Positions 1 to 38,968 of a stretch of DNA of 38,968 nt are shown here, in pieces. Below the pieces are notes generated by a model, which did not search any database, had not been told where the DNA came from, and saw only the letters and a program-made list of their open reading frames with translations. Origin of the DNA: a virus; the IMG/VR virus record IMGVR_UViG_3300034682_000221, positions 1 to 38,968 of that record; one strand, given 5' to 3'. The first letter of the stretch is position 1. Every line of letters begins with the position of its first letter. Made by a program: the position numbers and the translations under genes.

Positions 1-127
1 AGCCCTGAACTGTATGACACCATGGAGACCGGCCAGGGGGCGCGAGAGCAGCCCATGATGCTGGTGATCAGCACGGCAGGGGTTAACCCGGCTGGCCCAT
101 GCAAACAGTTCTGGGATGAGTGCGTCA
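1..127. repeat. Terminal direct repeat, left copy
   Basis: Bases 1-127 are identical to 38842-38968. Both copies lie inside the terminase gene, and joining them restores one uninterrupted frame. A repeat of exactly 127 bases inside a coding gene is typical of k-mer overlap left by an assembler on a circular contig, not of a biological terminal repeat. This is an inference from its length and placement. Confidence 0.97.
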
Positions 128-1095
128 GAATGCTCAGTGGTGCCGAGCCGGACGAAGAGCTGTTCGCCCTGATCTACACCATTGACGATGATGACGACAT
201 CTTTGACCCGGCCAGTCTGCGCAAGGCAAACCCCAATTACGGGGTATCGGTGTTTGAGGATTACCTGCTTGCCCAGCTGATGAGAGCCAAGCGCAATGCG
301 CGGCACCTCACCAAGTACCTGATCAAGCACCTCAACAAATGGACGACTGCCAGCTCCACCTTCTTCAACTACGACCATTGGCGCAGTGCTGCCGATGCGA
401 GCTTGAAGATTGAGGACTTTATCGGTTGCCCCTGCTGGTTTGCGCTCGACCTCGCCAGCAAGCTGGACATCTGCTCACTGGCGATCTGCTTCTCTCGCTA
501 CGAGTCGGACGGCCTGCTCCATTACTACCTGTTCACCCGCCACTGGCTGCCGGAGGACACCACCAACTACCCGGACAACCGCAACATGGACAAGTACCAG
601 CAGTGGATCTCTACGGTCTGGCCCAACTCTGGCGGAATGGCACTGACCCCAACGGATGGGGCCGAAATTGATTTCGGCGAGATAGGCGAAGAGGTGGCGG
701 CGCTGGCCAGCACCTACTCGCCTCGCGAGATCCCGCACGACCCATGGAACAGCGCCCAGCTGGCCCAACAGCTGGCGAACGCTGGCTGGCTGCCGGTGGC
801 TATCCCGCAAACCACGGCGCACCTGTCGCCACCGATGAAGGAGATGGAGTCGGCGCTTGCGGCTGGCCGTCTGCACCATGACGACAACCCGGTGATGAAC
901 TGGATGGTCGGCAACGTCACTGCCCGCGAGGATGCCAACGAAAACGTGTTCCCTCGCAAGGAGGGTAAAGACAACAAGATAGACGGTGCGATGGCTGCCA
1001 TCATGGCAATCGGCCGCGCCATGCTCAACAAGGGCGCTTACAGCAGCCCCTACCTGGATGATGATTATGACCCAACGGACGCGATACTTGATTGA
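1..1095 (+). CDS. terL: Terminase large subunit, 3' part (join-spanning gene)
   Basis: This is the C-terminal part of the DNA-packaging motor, which translocates and cuts concatemeric DNA into proheads. The frame is open from base 1, and its first codon is residue 218 of the protein that starts at 38191; after circularisation the gene encodes 581 residues. This half carries the RNase H-like nuclease domain: an acidic residue in ALDLAS (about residue 364 of the joined protein) and a late aspartate in KIDGAMAAIMA match the usual metal-binding positions. The Walker motifs lie in the other half. The stop at 1093-1095 overlaps the start of the small membrane-protein gene. The identification as an HK97/P27-type terminase is secure; only the window edge splits it. 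Confidence 0.95.
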   Translation, partial: SPELYDTMETGQGAREQPMMLVISTAGVNPAGPCKQFWDECVRMLSGAEPDEELFALIYTIDDDDDIFDPASLRKANPNYGVSVFEDYLLAQLMRAKRNARHLTKYLIKHLNKWTTASSTFFNYDHWRSAADASLKIEDFIGCPCWFALDLASKLDICSLAICFSRYESDGLLHYYLFTRHWLPEDTTNYPDNRNMDKYQQWISTVWPNSGGMALTPTDGAEIDFGEIGEEVAALASTYSPREIPHDPWNSAQLAQQLANAGWLPVAIPQTTAHLSPPMKEMESALAAGRLHHDDNPVMNWMVGNVTAREDANENVFPRKEGKDNKIDGAMAAIMAIGRAMLNKGAYSSPYLDDDYDPTDAILD

Positions 1096-19265: not shown

Positions 19266-19301
19266 CGGCTTGCCCAGCAGGGCGGTCGGTGCCAAAATTG
19301 C

Positions 19302-19317
19302 CTGTATAAAAATACAG
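19302..19317. promoter_or_regulatory. LexA (SOS) box
   Basis: The sequence CTGTATAAAAATACAG matches the gammaproteobacterial LexA operator CTGT-N8-ACAG perfectly, with an AT-rich spacer as in strong sites. It lies 22 bases upstream of the start codon of the following small gene and overlaps a TATAAA that could serve as the -10 element, so LexA binding should repress this gene until DNA damage. Confidence 0.85.
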
Positions 19318-19338
19318 TGCCAGCCGGGAGGGTTGCAG

Positions 19339-19536
19339 ATGAGTGGAGATAATGTGATGGGTGATCACGATGATCAGGTGATCGCTTCATCTGGATCATA
19401 TACGATAGGCCGACTCGCTCAGCGTTTGGCCAGCTTGCTGCCGTTACTCGGCCCGGATGTGTGTGATGCGGTGATCACCAAAGAGATCACCATCGCCGCC
19501 CAGGAGGCGGCCATATTGGCAGCAGCAGAAAGCTGA
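19339..19536 (+). CDS. Small SOS-controlled protein, candidate antirepressor
   Basis: This gene of 65 codons has a strong ribosome site (GGGAGGG, 7 bases ahead of ATG 19339) and sits as a single-gene unit between the late-operon terminator and the replication control region, directly behind a perfect LexA box. The product is acidic at the N-terminus and has an amphipathic helix YTIGRLAQRLASLLPLLG near residues 21-38; no transmembrane segment or known domain is seen. Known SOS-controlled small phage genes of this layout (Tum of phage 186, antirepressors of Gifsy and N15-type phages) inactivate repressors that cannot cleave themselves. That role here is inferred from layout and from the repressor's missing lysine. 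Confidence 0.75.
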   Translation: MSGDNVMGDHDDQVIASSGSYTIGRLAQRLASLLPLLGPDVCDAVITKEITIAAQEAAILAAAES

Positions 19537-19784: not shown

Positions 19785-20507
19785 ATGACATTCTCACCGG
19801 CCCATGATGGGCTGAATGTGGGTTCAGGCAACAGATGTGGCCACAACCCAAACAAACCGAAATTCCTCGTGCGCCCTCACGCACACAAAGCGCCTAAGTT
19901 CATTGCCAGGGCCAGAGAGCTGGTCGAGCTTTACTATTCCCGCCTGAAAGAGCTCACGGCGCTGGATGCGCTCAACCCGCACCGCAAAAAACGCTCTGAG
20001 CGCAGAGAAGCCACAATCCAGGTGCTAAAGGCGCTGATAAAGTACCTGGACCTGGTGACCCTTACCGTTGGGATCCCCACCAAGGATGGGCAAGTTGGCC
20101 TGACGTTGCTCAGGTTGCACAAGGAGACATCGATCAGCTGGTCTCGATTCAAGCGGGCTATCGCCGATCTGCGCGAGGCTGGTTTCCTTACTATCAGTCA
20201 GCCAAGAATGACGAACTCAGCGGGTCAGGTGCGTGGCCTGGTGGGTATCAAAGCGATCTCCCCTCGCCTGTTCGAGGCGCTCAAGATCGATTTCTGGTTG
20301 CGCCGAGAGCGCGACAGGGCATCGAAACGCCAACGCGCCAAAGCCAACGAGGCCGGCGTGACTCAGCGCAGTTTCTACCAGCGCTCTAAACCTCTGCGCC
20401 CCGCAATGGCTGCAGGCCACAATTTGCAGACAGCCCAAGGTGTTGGCCAGCCTCCCAGCTGGGCGCAGTTTAAGGCAAGCACAGCGGCCCGCCAGCCGCT
20501 CTCTTAA
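19785..20507 (+). CDS. repA: Plasmid replication initiator, IncFII RepA-like
   Basis: This 240-residue basic protein should bind the origin just downstream and recruit host DnaA and DnaB. Residues 73-160 look like the winged-helix core of IncFII RepA: a helix EATIQVLKALIKYLDL, the LTLLRLHKETSISWSRFKRA recognition-helix region and ADLREAGFLTISQP leading into the wing, followed by a basic linker (WLRRERDRASKRQRAK). R1 RepA is about 285 residues, so this one is somewhat short at the C-terminus. The start is fixed by the AGGCGG ribosome site and by the ATGA overlap with a leader frame. The antisense hairpin and DnaA-box origin around it independently support this call. Confidence 0.8.
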   Translation: MTFSPAHDGLNVGSGNRCGHNPNKPKFLVRPHAHKAPKFIARARELVELYYSRLKELTALDALNPHRKKRSERREATIQVLKALIKYLDLVTLTVGIPTKDGQVGLTLLRLHKETSISWSRFKRAIADLREAGFLTISQPRMTNSAGQVRGLVGIKAISPRLFEALKIDFWLRRERDRASKRQRAKANEAGVTQRSFYQRSKPLRPAMAAGHNLQTAQGVGQPPSWAQFKASTAARQPLS

Positions 20508-20800: not shown

Positions 20801-21341
20801 GCTCCCCAGGGAGAATGCCTGGCTATGCAGGCCAGCAAGCTGGCCGCCGCCAGAGCAAGGTCAACTGCAAGAATGCCTGACCTTGCAGGGCGCAAGCGCC
20901 CGCCGGTCAGCAGGTAACCCCCATTCGTGGGGGCAAGCCCCCACACCCCAGCCCCAAAACCACAGCTCGAACCTGTCATGCCCCATAAAGGGGCCGATCA
21001 CCTTCATGGGGGCGTCAGGCTGTTGTGGCCTTAAAGATAAAAGACGCTCAGCAGGGAGGGGGGTCGCTGTCGCTGTGATACCGCAGTCATTCCTCAACAC
21101 CGGCGACGCAGTGAGCATTAAAAAGAAAAGCCATGCCGCGGCATGGGCAAGGTGTGAGATTGCGTAAAACGAGGCTCAGGCGCGTTAAAGAGGGGAAAGG
21201 CCAGATAATGAAACCGGCCATCGAAATACAACAGAGATGCAACATTTTTAAGGTAGGAGTTCACAGGGTGGCACCTCCCCTTTGTTGTCAGTTTTGGGCC
21301 GTTCGTGGCCAGGCGCAGGCCAACGCCGCCCGCGAACCTGC
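20801..21341. other. Non-coding region with GC hairpins between origin and Xer site
   Basis: No convincing gene is seen. Two imperfect direct repeats share GAATGCCTG, then a TGCAGG core and a hairpin (20815-20853 and 20872-20907), and another hairpin lies at about 20921-20943. A 54-codon frame starting at 21208 has a poor ribosome site and no recognisable features. The part next to the Xer site could hold accessory-protein sites for recombination, but no ArgR or ArcA box was identified. Confidence 0.5.
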
Positions 21342-21382: not shown

Positions 21383-21793
21383 TTATGGCGGGTCGCCCTG
21401 GTCGTCACTGCCGGATGCTCTTAGCTGGATGGGGGCGCCCAGGGCGTCAGCCATGACCATCAGCTGGTCGATCACGGTGTCGGCCAGGCGAGGTGGGAGG
21501 CGCAGGAAGATACGCAGCGATCTGTCCAGGTGGCGCTGGCGTCCGATAGGCAGCAGCAGGTCGCCGATCTCTATGCCTAGGTAGGTGCAGATGCGGCGGG
21601 CCGCAGGAAGGGGCATGAACCCGCTGTGGCGCACGTTGAGCCACCGCCTGATGGATGTGGTGGGGATGCCCGTCTCGAATGACAGGTCATCGACTGAGAC
21701 GCCGTGACGCTGCATCAGCTGCGCCAGGTGCTTTTTGGTAGCGATTACATATTCCCGATCATCATCGGTCAGATAGGCATAGGCGGGTTTCAT
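21383..21793 (-). CDS. XRE-type helix-turn-helix regulator
   Basis: The 136-residue protein has an N-terminal helix-turn-helix of the Xre/Cro type, centred on HGVSVDDLSFETGIPTTSIR (about residues 30-49), followed by ARRICTYLGIEIGDLLLP, a typical end of this fold. The C-terminal 50 residues may mediate dimers. The start at 21793 is favoured by an AAGGAG ribosome site 7 bases upstream; a longer frame exists but lacks one. It is transcribed away from a region with two lux-box-like palindromes, so it may be a quorum-responsive regulator or the repressor of the small divergent gene. Confidence 0.8.
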   Translation of the reverse strand: MKPAYAYLTDDDREYVIATKKHLAQLMQRHGVSVDDLSFETGIPTTSIRRWLNVRHSGFMPLPAARRICTYLGIEIGDLLLPIGRQRHLDRSLRIFLRLPPRLADTVIDQLMVMADALGAPIQLRASGSDDQGDPP

Positions 21794-22640: not shown

Positions 22641-23279
22641 TTATTTCTGTTCCAGGATGGACAGGACTTCTTTGCCGAATGCCCGAACCTCTTTGCCTGC
22701 CTCGCTGCTGGCGGTGGCCACGCGCTCGGTGACGCCAAGGCCCACATCCATCATCACCCCGAAGTCGGCCCGCCGGCTGAGCTTGCTTGTCATCATGGTC
22801 AGGTTATTCAGGCCGGATACCGCGTCAGTCAGGCGGCTGACATCGCGGCGGCTCGGGTGGGTTCTGGTCATCAGTACGTGGCCGATCAACGGGGTGGGCA
22901 GTTTGAAATCCTGCTCGATGCTGGCCAGGGTTTCGTTGAAGGCGACCAGGCCGCGCAGTTCGGTGATGTCATCGTTTGCCGGGCAGATGATGATGTCTGA
23001 ATAGGCGATGGCAAAGCGGGTCAGGTTACTGTCATAACCGCCGCAGTCGATCAGCAGGTCGAGATCCGATTCGATGAGTGCCGCCAGTTGCGGGCCGGTG
23101 ACATCGCCGTGAACATCCCACTTCATATCGTCAGGGCGCAGCCGGTTGAGTGTCGCCAGGCAGAGGTGGCGATCGAGGTCTACCAGCGTCTTGATGCCCA
23201 GCTCTCCGGCCAGCTGCAGGGCCGTTGTGGTCTTGCCGGTTCCGCCCTTGCTGTGCGCTACCGTGATGATCTTTCCCAT
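22641..23279 (-). CDS. parA: Partition ATPase, type Ib ParA
   Basis: This 212-residue ATPase moves plasmid copies over the nucleoid. It begins with the deviant Walker A motif KGGTGKTT (residues 10-17), including the signature lysine at residue 10, has a Walker A' aspartate in LVDLDRH (about residue 34) and a Walker B segment LDLLIDCGG (about residue 75). It lacks the N-terminal helix-turn-helix of P1-type ParA, so autoregulation must come from the small partner. A GGAGG ribosome site precedes ATG 23279. Together with the RepA replicon this is the clearest sign of a plasmid lifestyle. Confidence 0.95.
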   Translation of the reverse strand: MGKIITVAHSKGGTGKTTTALQLAGELGIKTLVDLDRHLCLATLNRLRPDDMKWDVHGDVTGPQLAALIESDLDLLIDCGGYDSNLTRFAIAYSDIIICPANDDITELRGLVAFNETLASIEQDFKLPTPLIGHVLMTRTHPSRRDVSRLTDAVSGLNNLTMMTSKLSRRADFGVMMDVGLGVTERVATASSEAGKEVRAFGKEVLSILEQK

Positions 23280-24089: not shown

Positions 24090-24133
24090 ATTAGAGTCCG
24101 AAATTGTCACAAAAACAGATATCTGAAGGCGCG

Positions 24134-24163: not shown

Positions 24164-24784
24164 TTATTTGGTAATTCTAAAGAGGTATTTTCCCTTCACG
24201 TTGAGCAGGGCAAGCGCCTGGTCATCGAGACTCTCCAGGGTGCCGCTGGCGTCCTTTATATGCCATCCGCCCACGGCGCTCGGGACAACCCAGCGCGCCA
24301 GTGTCTCGCCGTTCGGATACTCGATGGCGTAGATCCCGCCCTGTGAGACGGTGTCCGCCTTTTCAAACACCGCGATGTCGCCACTGCCCAGGTTGGGCGC
24401 CATGGATTCATCGCTGATGCCCAGCTGGAGCACGTCATCGCTGTTCTTTATATGCGGCGCGATCTTGCTCAGCAGCCAGACCGGCGCCTCCTGGCGCGGC
24501 TCTGCCGGGGTCAGCCCCAGTAAATAGCTGGCGTCTACGCCGAATCGCGGCGCGAACACTTTGTTGATGGCAATCAGCCACCATGCCAGCACCTGCTGAC
24601 GCTGCCCGTTCTCATATGACAGATAGGTCGATTGCCCAATGCCGAGATCCTTGCTGGCCTGCAGGGCGCTGGCATACCTGCCTTTGCGCGCCTGTGCCAG
24701 AGCATGGCCCAGGATGGCTTTTTGTTCTTCGACCATTTCCTCGGTGATGTCACCGATCGTGCGGAGGCTTTGAGGTGTGTTCAT
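24164..24784 (-). CDS. CI-type phage repressor with degenerate S24 peptidase domain
   Basis: This 206-residue protein is the likely prophage repressor. The N-terminal half has a helix-turn-helix (ALQASKDLGIGQSTYLSYEN, about residues 40-59) and the C-terminal half a LexA/CI-like S24 domain: GISDESMAPNLGSGDIAVF places the nucleophile-type serine at residue 127. The usual catalytic lysine (VKR pattern) is replaced: the sequence is GETLARWV, with alanine 163 at the lysine position, and the hinge shows no Ala-Gly cleavage site. It is therefore unlikely to self-cleave and would need an antirepressor. It is transcribed divergently from the Cro-like gene, the classic immunity layout. Confidence 0.85.
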   Translation of the reverse strand: MNTPQSLRTIGDITEEMVEEQKAILGHALAQARKGRYASALQASKDLGIGQSTYLSYENGQRQQVLAWWLIAINKVFAPRFGVDASYLLGLTPAEPRQEAPVWLLSKIAPHIKNSDDVLQLGISDESMAPNLGSGDIAVFEKADTVSQGGIYAIEYPNGETLARWVVPSAVGGWHIKDASGTLESLDDQALALLNVKGKYLFRITK

Positions 24785-26248: not shown

Positions 26249-26392
26249 ATGACCACTACATTTCGCCCCAGAACCTACAACAAAGACCTCGCCGCCCGCG
26301 CTGCGCTCAAACGCCGCCAGGAGAAGCGAGATCTGATAGAGCAGCGCGCCATGCTCCGGTCGCTTGGGCTGAGCCCCAAGGAGGTGCTATGA
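26249..26392 (+). CDS. Small basic hypothetical protein
   Basis: This 47-residue gene has a GAGAGGA ribosome site and overlaps the next start as ATGA. The product is strongly basic and helical (LAARAALKRRQEKRDLIEQR) and ends LGLSPKEVL. It may be an RNA- or DNA-binding adaptor; function unknown. Confidence 0.6.
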   Translation: MTTTFRPRTYNKDLAARAALKRRQEKRDLIEQRAMLRSLGLSPKEVL

Positions 26393-34090: not shown

Positions 34091-34112
34091 GCCCGCATCA
34101 GCGGGCTTTTTG
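34090..34112 (+). terminator. Terminator of the small-gene operon
   Basis: The stem AGCCCGC/GCGGGCT with an ATCA loop is followed by TTTTT. It starts right at the stop codon of the previous gene. Confidence 0.85.
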
Positions 34113-34156: not shown

Positions 34157-34324
34157 ATGTGCCCGATCCAGGCGTCTGATCTCGGTCTGCCCCCAGATCA
34201 CCCCCTCACGTTGACGAATGCCGAGTTGGCGGCCCGCCTGCTTGATCTGCTGCCTGCTCTCCCTCCCCTTTACACTCCCCTGGTGCAGGAGGCGGCCCAG
34301 CGTCTGCTTGATCTGGGTGATTAG
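34157..34324 (+). CDS. Small leucine-rich protein antisense to the luxR 3' end
   Basis: This gene encodes 55 residues with a leucine-rich helical part (ELAARLLDLLPALPPLYTPL and VQEAAQRLLDLGD). GGAG lies 9 bases before the ATG. Its last 119 bases overlap, in antisense, the 3' end of the LuxR-type gene, and that overlap corresponds to the LuxR protein's unusual C-terminal tail. It might be an independent regulator or simply a gene that the luxR frame has grown into. Confidence 0.55.
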   Translation: MCPIQASDLGLPPDHPLTLTNAELAARLLDLLPALPPLYTPLVQEAAQRLLDLGD

Positions 34325-35054
34325 CGTGGTCGATCACCTTTGCCCGGTCGAGGGTGATATCCAGCTCCCTGCTGCGCAGCGCCCGCGCCACGGCGTTGTA
34401 ACGATTGGCCGCCCCTAGCTTGCGCCCCGCCGAGTTGAGGTGATGGGTAACGGTGCGCTCAGGGATGCCCATGATGATGCTGATCTCGGCGCTGGTTTTG
34501 CCCTCGCTGACCCAGAACAGGCAATCGGACTCCACGATGGTTAGTGGTCGTGAGCTGGTCGGCCTGCATGCCCGCAATACCGCATCGAGCACATAGGGAA
34601 CAACCAGTGCCAGGGTCGGGGCCGCTTCGATATAAAGCCCAGGCCGGAACTGCTCGGTGATAAAGCTCATCACCCCCGACTCGCCCTTTGGGCCGTGCAG
34701 GGGATACGAGACCCCACAGCGCAACCCGCATTTGGCCGCTTCAACCATCACATCCATCTGCTCATCGTTGCCGCGCAGCTCTTCCCATCTGATTGGCCTG
34801 GTCTGTGAGCGCGCCGCCGCGATAACCGGATCTCTGGCAATCATGCCGTGGCGGTTGTAGTGCTCGATCCACTCGTTCGGGCATGAGTTGAGAATGCGAA
34901 TAATGGGCCGCTGGTTGCTGACCGGGATGATGATGGCGAGTCGGTAATAGTCAAAGCCGAGGCCGTTGATCAGCTGCTCGATGGCGGCGGTCAACTCATC
35001 GGGATCGGTGATGCAGTCGAGTTCGGTCAGGCGCTCAAGCAGGCCATTTTTCAT
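34206..35054 (-). CDS. luxR: LuxR-type quorum-sensing receptor encoded by the phage
   Basis: This 282-residue protein has a full autoinducer-binding domain (about residues 15-165) and a GerE-type DNA-binding domain (about 171-232). All four residues that contact homoserine lactone in TraR are present with identical spacing: Trp62, Tyr66, Asp75 and Trp90. The domain continues with CGLRCGVSYPLHGPKGESG, close to Aeromonas AhyR as I remember it, and the HTH has CLFWVSEGKTSAEI. There is no luxI gene in the window, so it is a solo receptor that should sense the host's signal, by analogy C4-homoserine lactone. About 50 residues extend beyond the HTH, overlapping an opposite-strand gene. Phage-encoded LuxR receptors in Aeromonas phages were reported by Silpe and Bassler (2019). 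Confidence 0.93.
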   Translation of the reverse strand: MKNGLLERLTELDCITDPDELTAAIEQLINGLGFDYYRLAIIIPVSNQRPIIRILNSCPNEWIEHYNRHGMIARDPVIAAARSQTRPIRWEELRGNDEQMDVMVEAAKCGLRCGVSYPLHGPKGESGVMSFITEQFRPGLYIEAAPTLALVVPYVLDAVLRACRPTSSRPLTIVESDCLFWVSEGKTSAEISIIMGIPERTVTHHLNSAGRKLGAANRYNAVARALRSRELDITLDRAKVIDHANHPDQADAGPPPAPGECKGEGEQAADQAGGPPTRHSST

Positions 35055-35136: not shown

Positions 35137-35384
35137 CCAACGCTGGCGCAGGATAGAGACATTTTCATGCCTTCACCAGACAAGAGCAGGCAAACCCCAT
35201 TTTAAGCGTGACAATTCGCTTTTTCGTTCAAGGTGTCACAGTGATATGTGTCACAGTTATCACACGGCAAGATAAATTATCTGATTTTGTGTTGATTGAA
35301 CCGGAATGCCGGTGTACCTTTCTGGCTATGGTGGTCAAGGTTGCAAGCGCTGCCATCGTTCTCCAGATTTCATCCCATGCTTTT
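35137..35384. other. Regulatory region between luxR and the lysis genes
   Basis: No credible gene is seen in this stretch. It holds TGTCAC-type repeats (GTGTCACAGT at 35233-35242 and 35248-35257, plus GTGACA at 35209-35214), a short palindrome GATAAATTATC near 35271, an inverted repeat CCGGAATGCCGG near 35301, and a strong terminator at its right end. It probably contains the late promoter (pR'-like); exact boxes could not be assigned. Confidence 0.5.
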
Positions 35385-35415
35385 GGGCTCATCCTCACCG
35401 ATGAGCCCTTTTTTT
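35385..35415 (+). terminator. Terminator just ahead of the lysis genes (tR'-like)
   Basis: A perfect 9-bp stem (GGGCTCATC/GATGAGCCC) with a 6-base loop is followed by seven T residues. It lies ten bases ahead of the holin-like gene, the position of lambda tR', which is overcome by the Q antiterminator. Confidence 0.88.
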
Positions 35416-35425
35416 ATGGTGCCTT

Positions 35426-35665
35426 ATGCTCGAATTACTCCGCCGTCACACAGGCCAGTGCATCGCCTACGGCGGTGGATTCATCCTAAGCATCTGGTCT
35501 GGCCTTGTTCAGGCCGCCGAGAAAGTCCTTTCTGTTCAACTCCCAGAGCCGAACGCCATCAATGCCTTTGTAGGTGTTGGCGGCTTGGTGGCCATCTTTG
35601 GTCGCCTGTTCTTCGACATCTACGTCTATTTCGATAAGCGCCGTCGGCGCAAAGAGGAGGAATGA
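35426..35665 (+). CDS. Holin-like membrane protein
   Basis: The 79-residue protein has two transmembrane segments (about residues 14-33 and 45-68) and a highly charged C-terminus (DKRRRRKEEE), the features of a class II holin that opens the inner membrane to the lysozyme. It is first of the lysis cassette and overlaps the next gene as ATGA. The ribosome site is weak and lies just behind a terminator, so timing may be set at the transcription level. Confidence 0.72.
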   Translation: MLELLRRHTGQCIAYGGGFILSIWSGLVQAAEKVLSVQLPEPNAINAFVGVGGLVAIFGRLFFDIYVYFDKRRRRKEEE

Positions 35666-36111
35666 TGGCCAAGCTGTTTCATCAGCTGCGCGGCCTGCGC
35701 AATAACAACCCCGGCAATATCGACTATCACCCTTCCAATCAGTGGCAAGGGTTGGACAAGGACAAGCCGTCTGATGGCCGATTCTGCCGGTTCGTCAGCC
35801 CAGAGTACGGCATTCGGGCGATGGCTCGCCTGATCCTGAACTACACCAAGCGGGATGGTCTGCCTGGTGTCGGCGGTCACGGCATTGACACGGTAGAGGA
35901 AATCATCAATCGCTGGGCGCCGCCCACTGAGAACGTGACCTCTGCTTATGTCGAGCAGGTGGCCAAGGCGTTGGGCGTCAAGCCTGACACTCCCATCAAC
36001 ATCGCCGACAGGGCGGTGATGCTCTTGCTTGTCGAGTCCATCATCAAGCACGAGAACGGCATTCAGCCGTATAGTGCCGAGCTGCTCCTGACCGGCATTG
36101 ATATGGCGTGA
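35662..36111 (+). CDS. Endolysin-type muramidase/transglycosylase
   Basis: This 149-residue protein starts with a conserved LRGLRNNNPGNIDYH motif and has FCRFVSPEYGIRAMARLILNY, both typical of the structural P5/lysozyme-like family found in phage lysis cassettes. No signal peptide is visible, so export through the holin is expected. It overlaps the holin-like gene by four bases. Confidence 0.78.
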   Translation: MMAKLFHQLRGLRNNNPGNIDYHPSNQWQGLDKDKPSDGRFCRFVSPEYGIRAMARLILNYTKRDGLPGVGGHGIDTVEEIINRWAPPTENVTSAYVEQVAKALGVKPDTPINIADRAVMLLLVESIIKHENGIQPYSAELLLTGIDMA

Positions 36112-37753: not shown

Positions 37754-38191
37754 ATGGCAAGAGCCGCCGGGGGTGGCCGCAAGGGAGGCGGTGACCTCCC
37801 CGCCGCGCCATCCAATCAAGTTATCAAGCGGGCGCCTCCCGTCCCGCCAGAGTTGCACTATGACGAGGCTCGCCTGCTGTGGCGCAGCACGGTCAAAACC
37901 TTGATCGGTCGTCAGCAGCTTACCGAAGATCATCTGCCGCTGGTGCTGGCGTACTGCAACTCGTTCGGTCTGTATCTCACGGCCGAGAAGATGGTGCTGG
38001 ATGACGGCATCACAGCCGCCACCTCTGAGGGCATCAAGAAACATCCCGCCGTTGCTGTCCGCCAAGATGCGATCTCTTCGATGGTCAGGATCGGATCGCT
38101 GCTTGGTCTTGACCCAACCAGCTATCGCCGCCTGATGGGTGGCGGTGGCGGGTCTGGCGATGATGGCGGAAATGAGTTCAAGGATTTCTGA
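37754..38191 (+). CDS. terS: Terminase small subunit, P27 family
   Basis: This 145-residue DNA-recognition subunit starts with a glycine/lysine-rich N-terminus ([12 protein letters not shown]) and has the P27 family pattern: [38 protein letters not shown], then a C-terminal [14 protein letters not shown] end. It directs terminase to the packaging site. Its stop overlaps the terL start by one base (ATG 38191). Confidence 0.93.
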
Positions 38192-38968
38192 TGGCCAAGA
38201 ACCCGAACGTCAACGCCGCGAACAAGTACGCCCGCGACGTGGTGTCGGGTCGGGTCATCGCCTGCAAGTATGTTCAGCAGGCATGTCAGCGCCACCTGGA
38301 CGATCTGGATAAGTCCAAAGAGAAGGACTACCCCTACCGGTTCGATGCCGCCAAGGCAGAACGGGCCTGCAAGTTCCTGCAACTGCTGCCGCACACCAAG
38401 GGAAAATGGCGGCGCCTGCCGCTGGACAAGCGCCGGATAACGCTGGAGCCCTGGCAGCTGTTCTTTCATGTGTGTGTGTACGGCTGGATCCGCAAGAAGG
38501 ACGGGCTGCGCCGGTTCCGGCGTGCGGCCCTGTTCGTGCCGCGCAAGAATGGCAAATCCATCGTGGCGGCGGGCAATGGCATCTACATGTTTGCGGCGGA
38601 CGATGAGCCAGGCGCGGAGGTGTACTGCGGGGCCACCACAGAAAAACAGGCGTGGGAGGTATTCAAACCCGCGATGCAGATCGCGGCCCAGCTGCCCAAC
38701 CTGCGCCGCACGTTTGGCATTCAGGTCTGCGCCAAGAAGATGCTGCGTCAGGATGGCTCGGTGTTTGAGCCGGTGATCGGTAATCCCGGCGATGGCTCAA
38801 GCCCACACCTGGCGATTGTCGATGAGTACCACGAACACGACAGCCCTGAACTGTATGACACCATGGAGACCGGCCAGGGGGCGCGAGAGCAGCCCATGAT
38901 GCTGGTGATCAGCACGGCAGGGGTTAACCCGGCTGGCCCATGCAAACAGTTCTGGGATGAGTGCGTCA
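38191..38968 (+). CDS. terL: Terminase large subunit, 5' part (join-spanning gene)
   Basis: This is the N-terminal ATPase half of the packaging motor. The Walker A motif VPRKNGKS lies at residues 116-123 and Walker B LAIVDEY at 207-213, with glutamate 212 as the catalytic residue. The frame runs off the window at base 38968 and continues from base 1 (after removing the 127-base repeat) to give 581 residues. The adenine-binding Q-motif region is [10 protein letters not shown], near residue 83. It is a typical HK97-type large terminase. Confidence 0.95.
38842..38968. repeat. Terminal direct repeat, right copy
   Basis: This is identical to bases 1-127. It marks the end of the circle at 38,841 bp. 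Confidence 0.97.

Follow-up and report, generated by a model that had tools for sequence, protein, structure and literature searches.

The window, i.e. the whole stretch of 38,968 nucleotides that was analysed (IMG/VR record IMGVR_UViG_3300034682_000221), carries a luxR gene at the junction of the early and the late genes, on the strand opposite to both regions. The gene is divergent from the holin-like gene, the lysis genes, the terminase and the structural genes, and this placement is found in all eight genomes of the family, the window included. The genes and features at the locus are the following (positions in the window):

34091..34111, plus strand: terminator hairpin ending the early operon ahead of the smORF, seen in the sequence; the A. 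salmonicida copy is also called, and the hairpin is kept in seven genomes
34157..34324, plus strand: smORF of 55 aa, convergent with luxR, candidate antirepressor; present in seven of the eight genomes and missing in L031
34206..35054, minus strand: luxR, encoding a LuxR-type regulator of 282 aa with an ATG start, predicted to bind AHLs from profile matches and pocket residues
about 34386-34547, minus strand: GerE part of luxR (Pfam)
about 34581-35003, minus strand: Autoind_bind part of luxR (Pfam)
35426..35665, plus strand: holin-like small protein, first gene of the lysis/late operon (PHROG 27892, no function given)
35662..36111, plus strand: endolysin (PHROG 873)

The order of luxR, 370 bp, a terminator and the holin-like gene is kept in all eight members, although endolysins and whole head modules are swapped among them. 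The slot of luxR has thus survived module exchange.

The LuxR receptor and its probable signal

LuxR of the window matches Autoind_bind (PF03472) over residues 18-157 (1.3e-27, 96.6 bits) and GerE (PF00196) over residues 170-223 (1.6e-10, 40.9 bits), and both matches are above the curated Pfam cut-offs of 23 and 23.5 bits, respectively. The residues W62, Y66, D75, P76, and W90 are all found, and the steps of +4, +9, and +15 between W62, Y66, D75, and W90 equal those of the TraR numbering 57/61/70/85. An ungapped HMMER alignment to LasR chains agrees with this register of the pocket residues, and W62, Y66, D75, and W90 are unchanged across all phage LuxRs aligned. With domain matches far above chance, the open reading frame is confirmed as a complete LuxR-type receptor, which is predicted to bind AHLs. 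The original prediction of a complete receptor with an intact GerE HTH and with Trp62, Tyr66, Asp75, and Trp90 at TraR spacing was thus borne out in both parts. The nearest solved relatives by sequence are RhlR and LasR, and an AlphaFold model (pLDDT 77) has QscR, RhlR, SdiA, and LasR as top PDB matches by fold. Judged by dN/dS, which is about 0.06-0.33 where defined, with many dS values near saturation, luxR is under purifying selection across the eight genomes.

Residues 244-282 form a 39-aa tail that is missing from all seven relatives, the luxR genes of which end with VIDH or VIDY, or at most three residues further on. Since the window has GC ahead of the TAA seen in the A. salmonicida relative (GACCACGCTAA versus GACCACTAA), the usual end of luxR lies at about 34326, and the tail, which is peculiar to the window lineage, stems either from a sequencing error or from a frameshift of recent date. 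The tail is read from DNA antisense to the small convergent gene, and it has a pLDDT below 50 in the AlphaFold model.

No luxI gene (PF00765) is present in the window or in the relatives, as had been predicted, and the same search gave a match in an A. caviae chromosome as positive control. The window LuxR is a LuxR solo with no cognate LuxI on its replicon. As there is no synthase on the element, LuxR should sense a signal that others produce, and an intact receptor on a phage-plasmid without a cognate synthase agrees with the earlier idea of a receptor for a host-made signal. One A. caviae chromosome has a gene for an AhyR-like protein and, convergent to it, one for LuxI. Out of 25 LasR-pocket positions, the window LuxR has 16-19 in common with the LuxRs of the ARM81ld type and 17 with this AhyR-like protein, compared with nine for LasR and 11 for a RhlR variant. 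The pocket is thus closer to the C4-HSL receptors of the genus than to LasR or RhlR, and because of these higher counts the ligand is likely to be a short-chain AHL, for which C4-HSL is plausible. The Apop receptor accepts C6 and C8 besides C4-HSL (PMC6456758).

A family of circular phage-plasmids

An exact terminal repeat of 127 bp shows that the window is a complete circular genome with a unit length of 38,841 bp. It has phage structural genes together with plasmid partition and replication genes on one circular replicon, among them:

19785..20507, plus strand: candidate for a replication initiator of the plasmid type, with about 42% identity to plasmid proteins, one of which is annotated RepA
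22641..23279, minus strand: ParA partition ATPase, from sequence matches
24164..24784, minus strand: lysogeny repressor of the S24 type (HTH and weak Peptidase_S24)
38191..38841, plus strand: 5' part of the large terminase subunit gene (terL), which continues at 1..1095 over the circular join

A protelomerase was not found in the window family by a search that detected one in ARM81ld as positive control, and therefore the family does not belong to the linear plasmid phages of the ARM81ld kind. The designation as a phage-plasmid, which the original prediction had given, is supported by ParA, the initiator candidate and the structural genes, and has to be corrected to the circular kind in view of the 127-bp repeat and the lack of a protelomerase. 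Positions 20812-21064 comprise about 250 bp of non-coding DNA with 78-86% identity to plasmids from Klebsiella, Citrobacter, Edwardsiella, and Aeromonas; among these plasmids, one is typed IncN. In two inspected cases the counterparts lie upstream of a ParM-annotated gene, and the segment may be borrowed plasmid maintenance or origin DNA.

Three relatives were deposited as complete circular plasmids, pASaBE4 of A. salmonicida, W3 of A. caviae, and Yor 16989 of A. veronii, and four more are IMG/VR contigs, which gives eight genomes with the window. Their LuxRs are 62-75% identical to that of the window. From kinship, e.g., 7 kb shared at 93% with the A. veronii plasmid, we infer that the host is Aeromonas. 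The sample of members is partly biased, since they were first found by LuxR queries. Among the records that were found via Rep, ParA, or the holin-like protein, luxR is present in all of the three closest Aeromonas plasmids and absent from the three Vibrio plasmids; one 27-kb contig with related modules, which is incomplete, also shows no luxR. In the plasmid collection NZ_AP026896.1 (4.94 Mb), labelled as plasmid pKAM479_3, resembles a chromosome, with an AhyR/LuxI pair and an integrated prophage, and therefore the collection has at least one mislabelled record. LuxR on Aeromonas phages was already known from phiARM81ld and Apop. The window adds another LuxR clade, distinct from theirs, in a family of circular phage-plasmids that is unrelated to these phages and occurs in at least three Aeromonas species; no paper on this family was found in the literature searched, a coverage outside which most subscription papers fall.

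The region between luxR and the late genes

The features that we assign to the control of the late genes and to the repressor are the following:

24108..24121, plus strand: second operator-like site CACAAAAACAGATA downstream of the repressor gene, from a motif match
24822, in the early promoter: third, weaker operator-like site CACAAAACGTGATA, from a motif match
35168..35192, no strand: inverted repeat IR1, TGCCTTC-N11-GCAGGCA, centred at -147 from the putative late start in all eight genomes
35240..35255, no strand: CRP-like palindrome AGTGA-N6-TCACA, centred at -79.5 from the putative late start in all eight genomes, degenerate in two
35278..35291, minus strand: probable repressor operator CACAAAATCAGATA abutting the late -35, from motif position and co-variation
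35292..35320, plus strand: putative late promoter TTGATT-N17-TACCTT, aligned with TTGAAA-N17-TATGTT of the Vibrio sisters; predicted late start near 35327
35385..35415, plus strand: predicted intrinsic terminator between the late promoter and the holin-like gene

The region of about 370 bp between luxR and the holin-like gene is 60-92% identical among diverged members, compared with 30-53% at the fourfold sites of luxR, and for some pairs recent exchange may add to this identity. The centres of IR1 and of the CRP-like site keep their exact distance to the late -10 in every genome, while the leader varies by 17 bp (99-116 bp), and a strong terminator follows 81-95 bp behind the putative late start. 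In the relatives IR1 reads TGCCTGC/GCAGGCA or TGCCTTC/GAAGGCA, so that its two arms differ in a matched way from one subgroup to the other (family pattern TGCCTKC-N11-GMAGGCA), and its type co-varies with the type of the repressor and also of LuxR. It overlaps the expected position of the luxR -35. A canonical lux box (CTG-N10-CAG) is found neither in the luxR/late region nor near the smORF, and the spacing of IR1, CTG-N13-CAG, is unusual for LuxR proteins; IR1 is therefore listed here as a candidate LuxR site of atypical spacing. With the pattern GTGA-N6-TCAC, the CRP-like site is the single such site in the window and in most genomes. Rfam gave no match.

Several other assignments were rejected. 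IR1 is not an intrinsic terminator, as it has no T-run and lies in the non-coding stretch that separates divergent genes; a leader open reading frame starting from the conserved ATGGTGGTG (about 35330) has a stop at the fourth codon in A. veronii and is thus not conserved; and a decayed late -35 (GTGTTG) was abandoned since the Vibrio alignment puts TTGNNN in register. The only strong CTG-N10-CAG of the family, at 19300, reads better as a LexA box than as a lux box in view of its LexA core and its place directly ahead of a ribosome site. This LexA-type box, GCCTGTATAAAAATACAGTG at 19300-19319, is located 20 nt before an open reading frame of 65 aa (19339-19536) and is conserved in five relatives; the product is a probable SOS-controlled antirepressor by analogy to the logic of N15.

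Operator-like motifs track the type of the repressor. Five genomes each have two copies of CACAAAATCAGATA with at most one mismatch, of which one always follows the repressor gene and the other adjoins the -35 of the late promoter, and a weaker variant of it is present in the early promoter. The two genomes with the other repressor type (33% identity) have the motif GCTACAGTTAGTAG instead, both at the early promoter and in the late region, and a near copy of it follows the repressor gene. In V. cyclitrophicus a 14-mer, CATTTTGTGGTAAT, is common to the repressor and the late regions, where it lies by the -35 of TTGAAA-N17-TATGTT. From position and co-variation, CACAAAATCAGATA, GCTACAGTTAGTAG, and CATTTTGTGGTAAT are probable repressor operators. 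A plain k-mer search for a shared operator was not significant in the window or in A. salmonicida alone; only the positions of motifs across genomes made it clear.

An integrated prophage of A. caviae has a homologous late module with 80.6% DNA identity over the aligned part, and there the antiterminator Q (PF03589, PHROG 127) is encoded just before the lysis genes. No Q of PF03589 was found in the circular phage-plasmid family. LuxR thus resembles the lambdoid Q in its slot directly ahead of the lysis cassette, but Q is a protein unrelated to LuxR, and luxR of the window is on the opposite strand to the late genes.

Possible targets of LuxR and comparison with known systems

With a confidence just short of an even chance, we propose that LuxR with its AHL regulates its own promoter as well as that of the late/lysis genes, and that late output after loss of the repressor would depend on the LuxR/AHL state. 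LuxR would take up a host-made AHL, in all likelihood one with a short chain (C4-HSL, for example), and its dimer would act in the luxR/late intergenic region on its own gene and on the promoter of the late genes (lysis, packaging, structural). In the lysogen, the S24 repressor on the operator abutting the late -35 would keep the late genes off, and once SOS or an antirepressor has removed the repressor, the LuxR/AHL state would be a further determinant of late output, which amounts to a quorum check on lysis. A stricter form, in which the late/lysis promoter is directly under LuxR-AHL and lysis needs both repressor loss and host quorum, as a two-input gate and not through a quorum-driven antirepressor, is possible but rather doubtful. 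AHL binding, binding of LuxR in the luxR/late region, and activation over repression are all inferred here. What argues for this regulation of the late promoter is the intact and selected receptor, its fixed slot, the constrained control region with its exact geometry, the motif that tracks the repressor, and the position that Q occupies elsewhere. The main weakness is the lack of a canonical lux box together with the atypical spacing of IR1. Moreover, the region may be conserved solely for the sake of the repressor, of CRP, or of RNA polymerase, a regulator beside a promoter need not control that promoter, and the PHROG 536 protein at 26389, an early regulator, could be the late regulator instead. 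A further point against it is that the Vibrio sisters manage to express their late genes without LuxR. On the other side, these sisters keep promoter, terminator, and holin-like gene, so that luxR was added to, or lost from, a late-control region.

Among the alternatives, an unlikely one that nevertheless survives best is that LuxR-AHL activates the convergent 55-aa smORF (34157-34324) as antirepressor of the S24 repressor, i.e., the ARM81ld/Apop logic in a rearranged layout. This logic has a published precedent (PMC10432266), as XRE, LuxR, and C4-HSL switch on a divergent smORF that inactivates CI (PMC10432266, PMC9894119); the original statement that the target genes of phage LuxRs are not known holds for the 2019 paper, but is out of date since this target has been shown. 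The smORF is kept in seven of the eight members with its own conserved upstream stretch, and the types of smORF, repressor, and LuxR co-vary between the two subgroups. It also has a weak similarity to the open reading frame behind the LexA box at 19339 (hhalign E 0.0014, probability 17.6; shuffles give p of about 0.002-0.02 in one subgroup and no support in the other), which is too weak to claim a kinship. On the other hand, smORF and luxR are oriented 3' to 3', with about 0.9 kb between their promoters, L031 without the smORF keeps luxR and the late region, and upstream of the smORF no LuxR-type palindrome was found besides terminator-like sequence.

More unlikely still is the same set of targets with the opposite sign, in which AHL-free LuxR represses the late or its own promoter like EsaR and AHL relieves the repression. 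IR1 covering the expected luxR -35 would fit, and the late -35 is usable in several members (TTGAAA in two), so that an activator is not strictly needed; yet many LuxR receptors, and both phage LuxRs that were tested, require AHL to fold (PMC6456758). That the chief effect of LuxR in the lysogen is to rewire quorum-controlled genes of the host, and that it matters little to the phage cycle, is improbable. Here the A. salmonicida plasmid pO23AP3 is a point in favour, as it bears a LuxR without a phage context, but the fixed late-region position in all members and the retention through module exchange favour a phage target, and overall the window LuxR is merely 43% identical to AhyR. Finally, it is hardly credible that luxR is a passenger, a decaying acquired gene without function in the window element. 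The 39-aa frameshifted tail of the window copy would fit, but this tail lies beyond the HTH, seven relatives have intact genes, and purifying selection is seen.

If LuxR-AHL does regulate the late promoter, it is the carrying out of lysis and not induction that would come under quorum sensing, and an induced prophage could burst its cell or not depending on the host signal. So far, Aeromonas phage LuxRs have been studied in the linear phages ARM81ld and Apop, in which they trigger induction by way of a small antirepressor and in which their response to C4-HSL was described in 2019 (PMC6456758). Window family and ARM81ld/Apop share an AHL-binding type of LuxR with a conserved pocket and without luxI on an Aeromonas phage-plasmid. 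However, ARM81ld (KT898133) and Apop are linear 47-kb phages with a protelomerase, whereas the window family is circular. In ARM81ld/Apop, luxR is part of an xre-luxR operon beside parAB, divergent from the smORF antirepressor, whereas in the window it stands alone without an xre partner at the lysis/late border, divergent from the holin-like gene; the HTH gene at 21383 is about 13 kb away. As an adjacent xre and a divergent smORF are missing, the ARM81ld/Apop circuit is not simply transferable. The window LuxR is 36% identical to that of ARM81ld and 36-43% to LuxRs of this type. In a LuxR tree with midpoint root and some long branches, a branch with support 86/87 sets the window family apart from the linear-phage LuxRs (99/99). 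The latter group with AhyR, to which they are about 47-52% identical, compared with about 39-44% for the window family. The LuxR of pO23AP3 (NZ_CP021657), a TrfA plasmid of A. salmonicida, falls inside the linear-phage group (L036 5965-6735).

The phages of the ARM81ld type differ also in having a canonical lux-box-like sequence upstream, the near-perfect palindrome ACCTGTAATTAATTACAGGC or a one-base variant (L007 8225, L008 7560, L012 9548, L015 9554), which in the two annotated records separates the smORF from xre and is a likely XRE/LuxR site of the published circuit. A CRP-like TGTGA-N6-TCAC is located upstream of xre-luxR as well (L007 about 8280, L008 about 7600), as it is upstream of the luxR unit in the window family, and cAMP-CRP may therefore tune phage luxR in both families. 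AhyR of Aeromonas and RhlR of P. aeruginosa are likewise two-domain AHL receptors with a pocket likely of the C4-HSL type, but they are chromosomal and paired with a LuxI enzyme, and the window LuxR is 43% identical to the AhyR-like protein of A. caviae. VP882 also has a quorum receptor on a phage-plasmid, which there serves lysis control: its VqmA, of a receptor family different from LuxR, binds DPO, and Qtip is the antirepressor (PMC12324486). The Vibrio plasmids p-ED287, p1 (E110), and p114-2 share with the window family the circular form, the general gene order, and a related holin-like protein with promoter and terminator ahead of it, and in p-ED287 a repressor operator is read at the late promoter as in the window. 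They differ in having no LuxR, which makes these three sisters a natural comparison.
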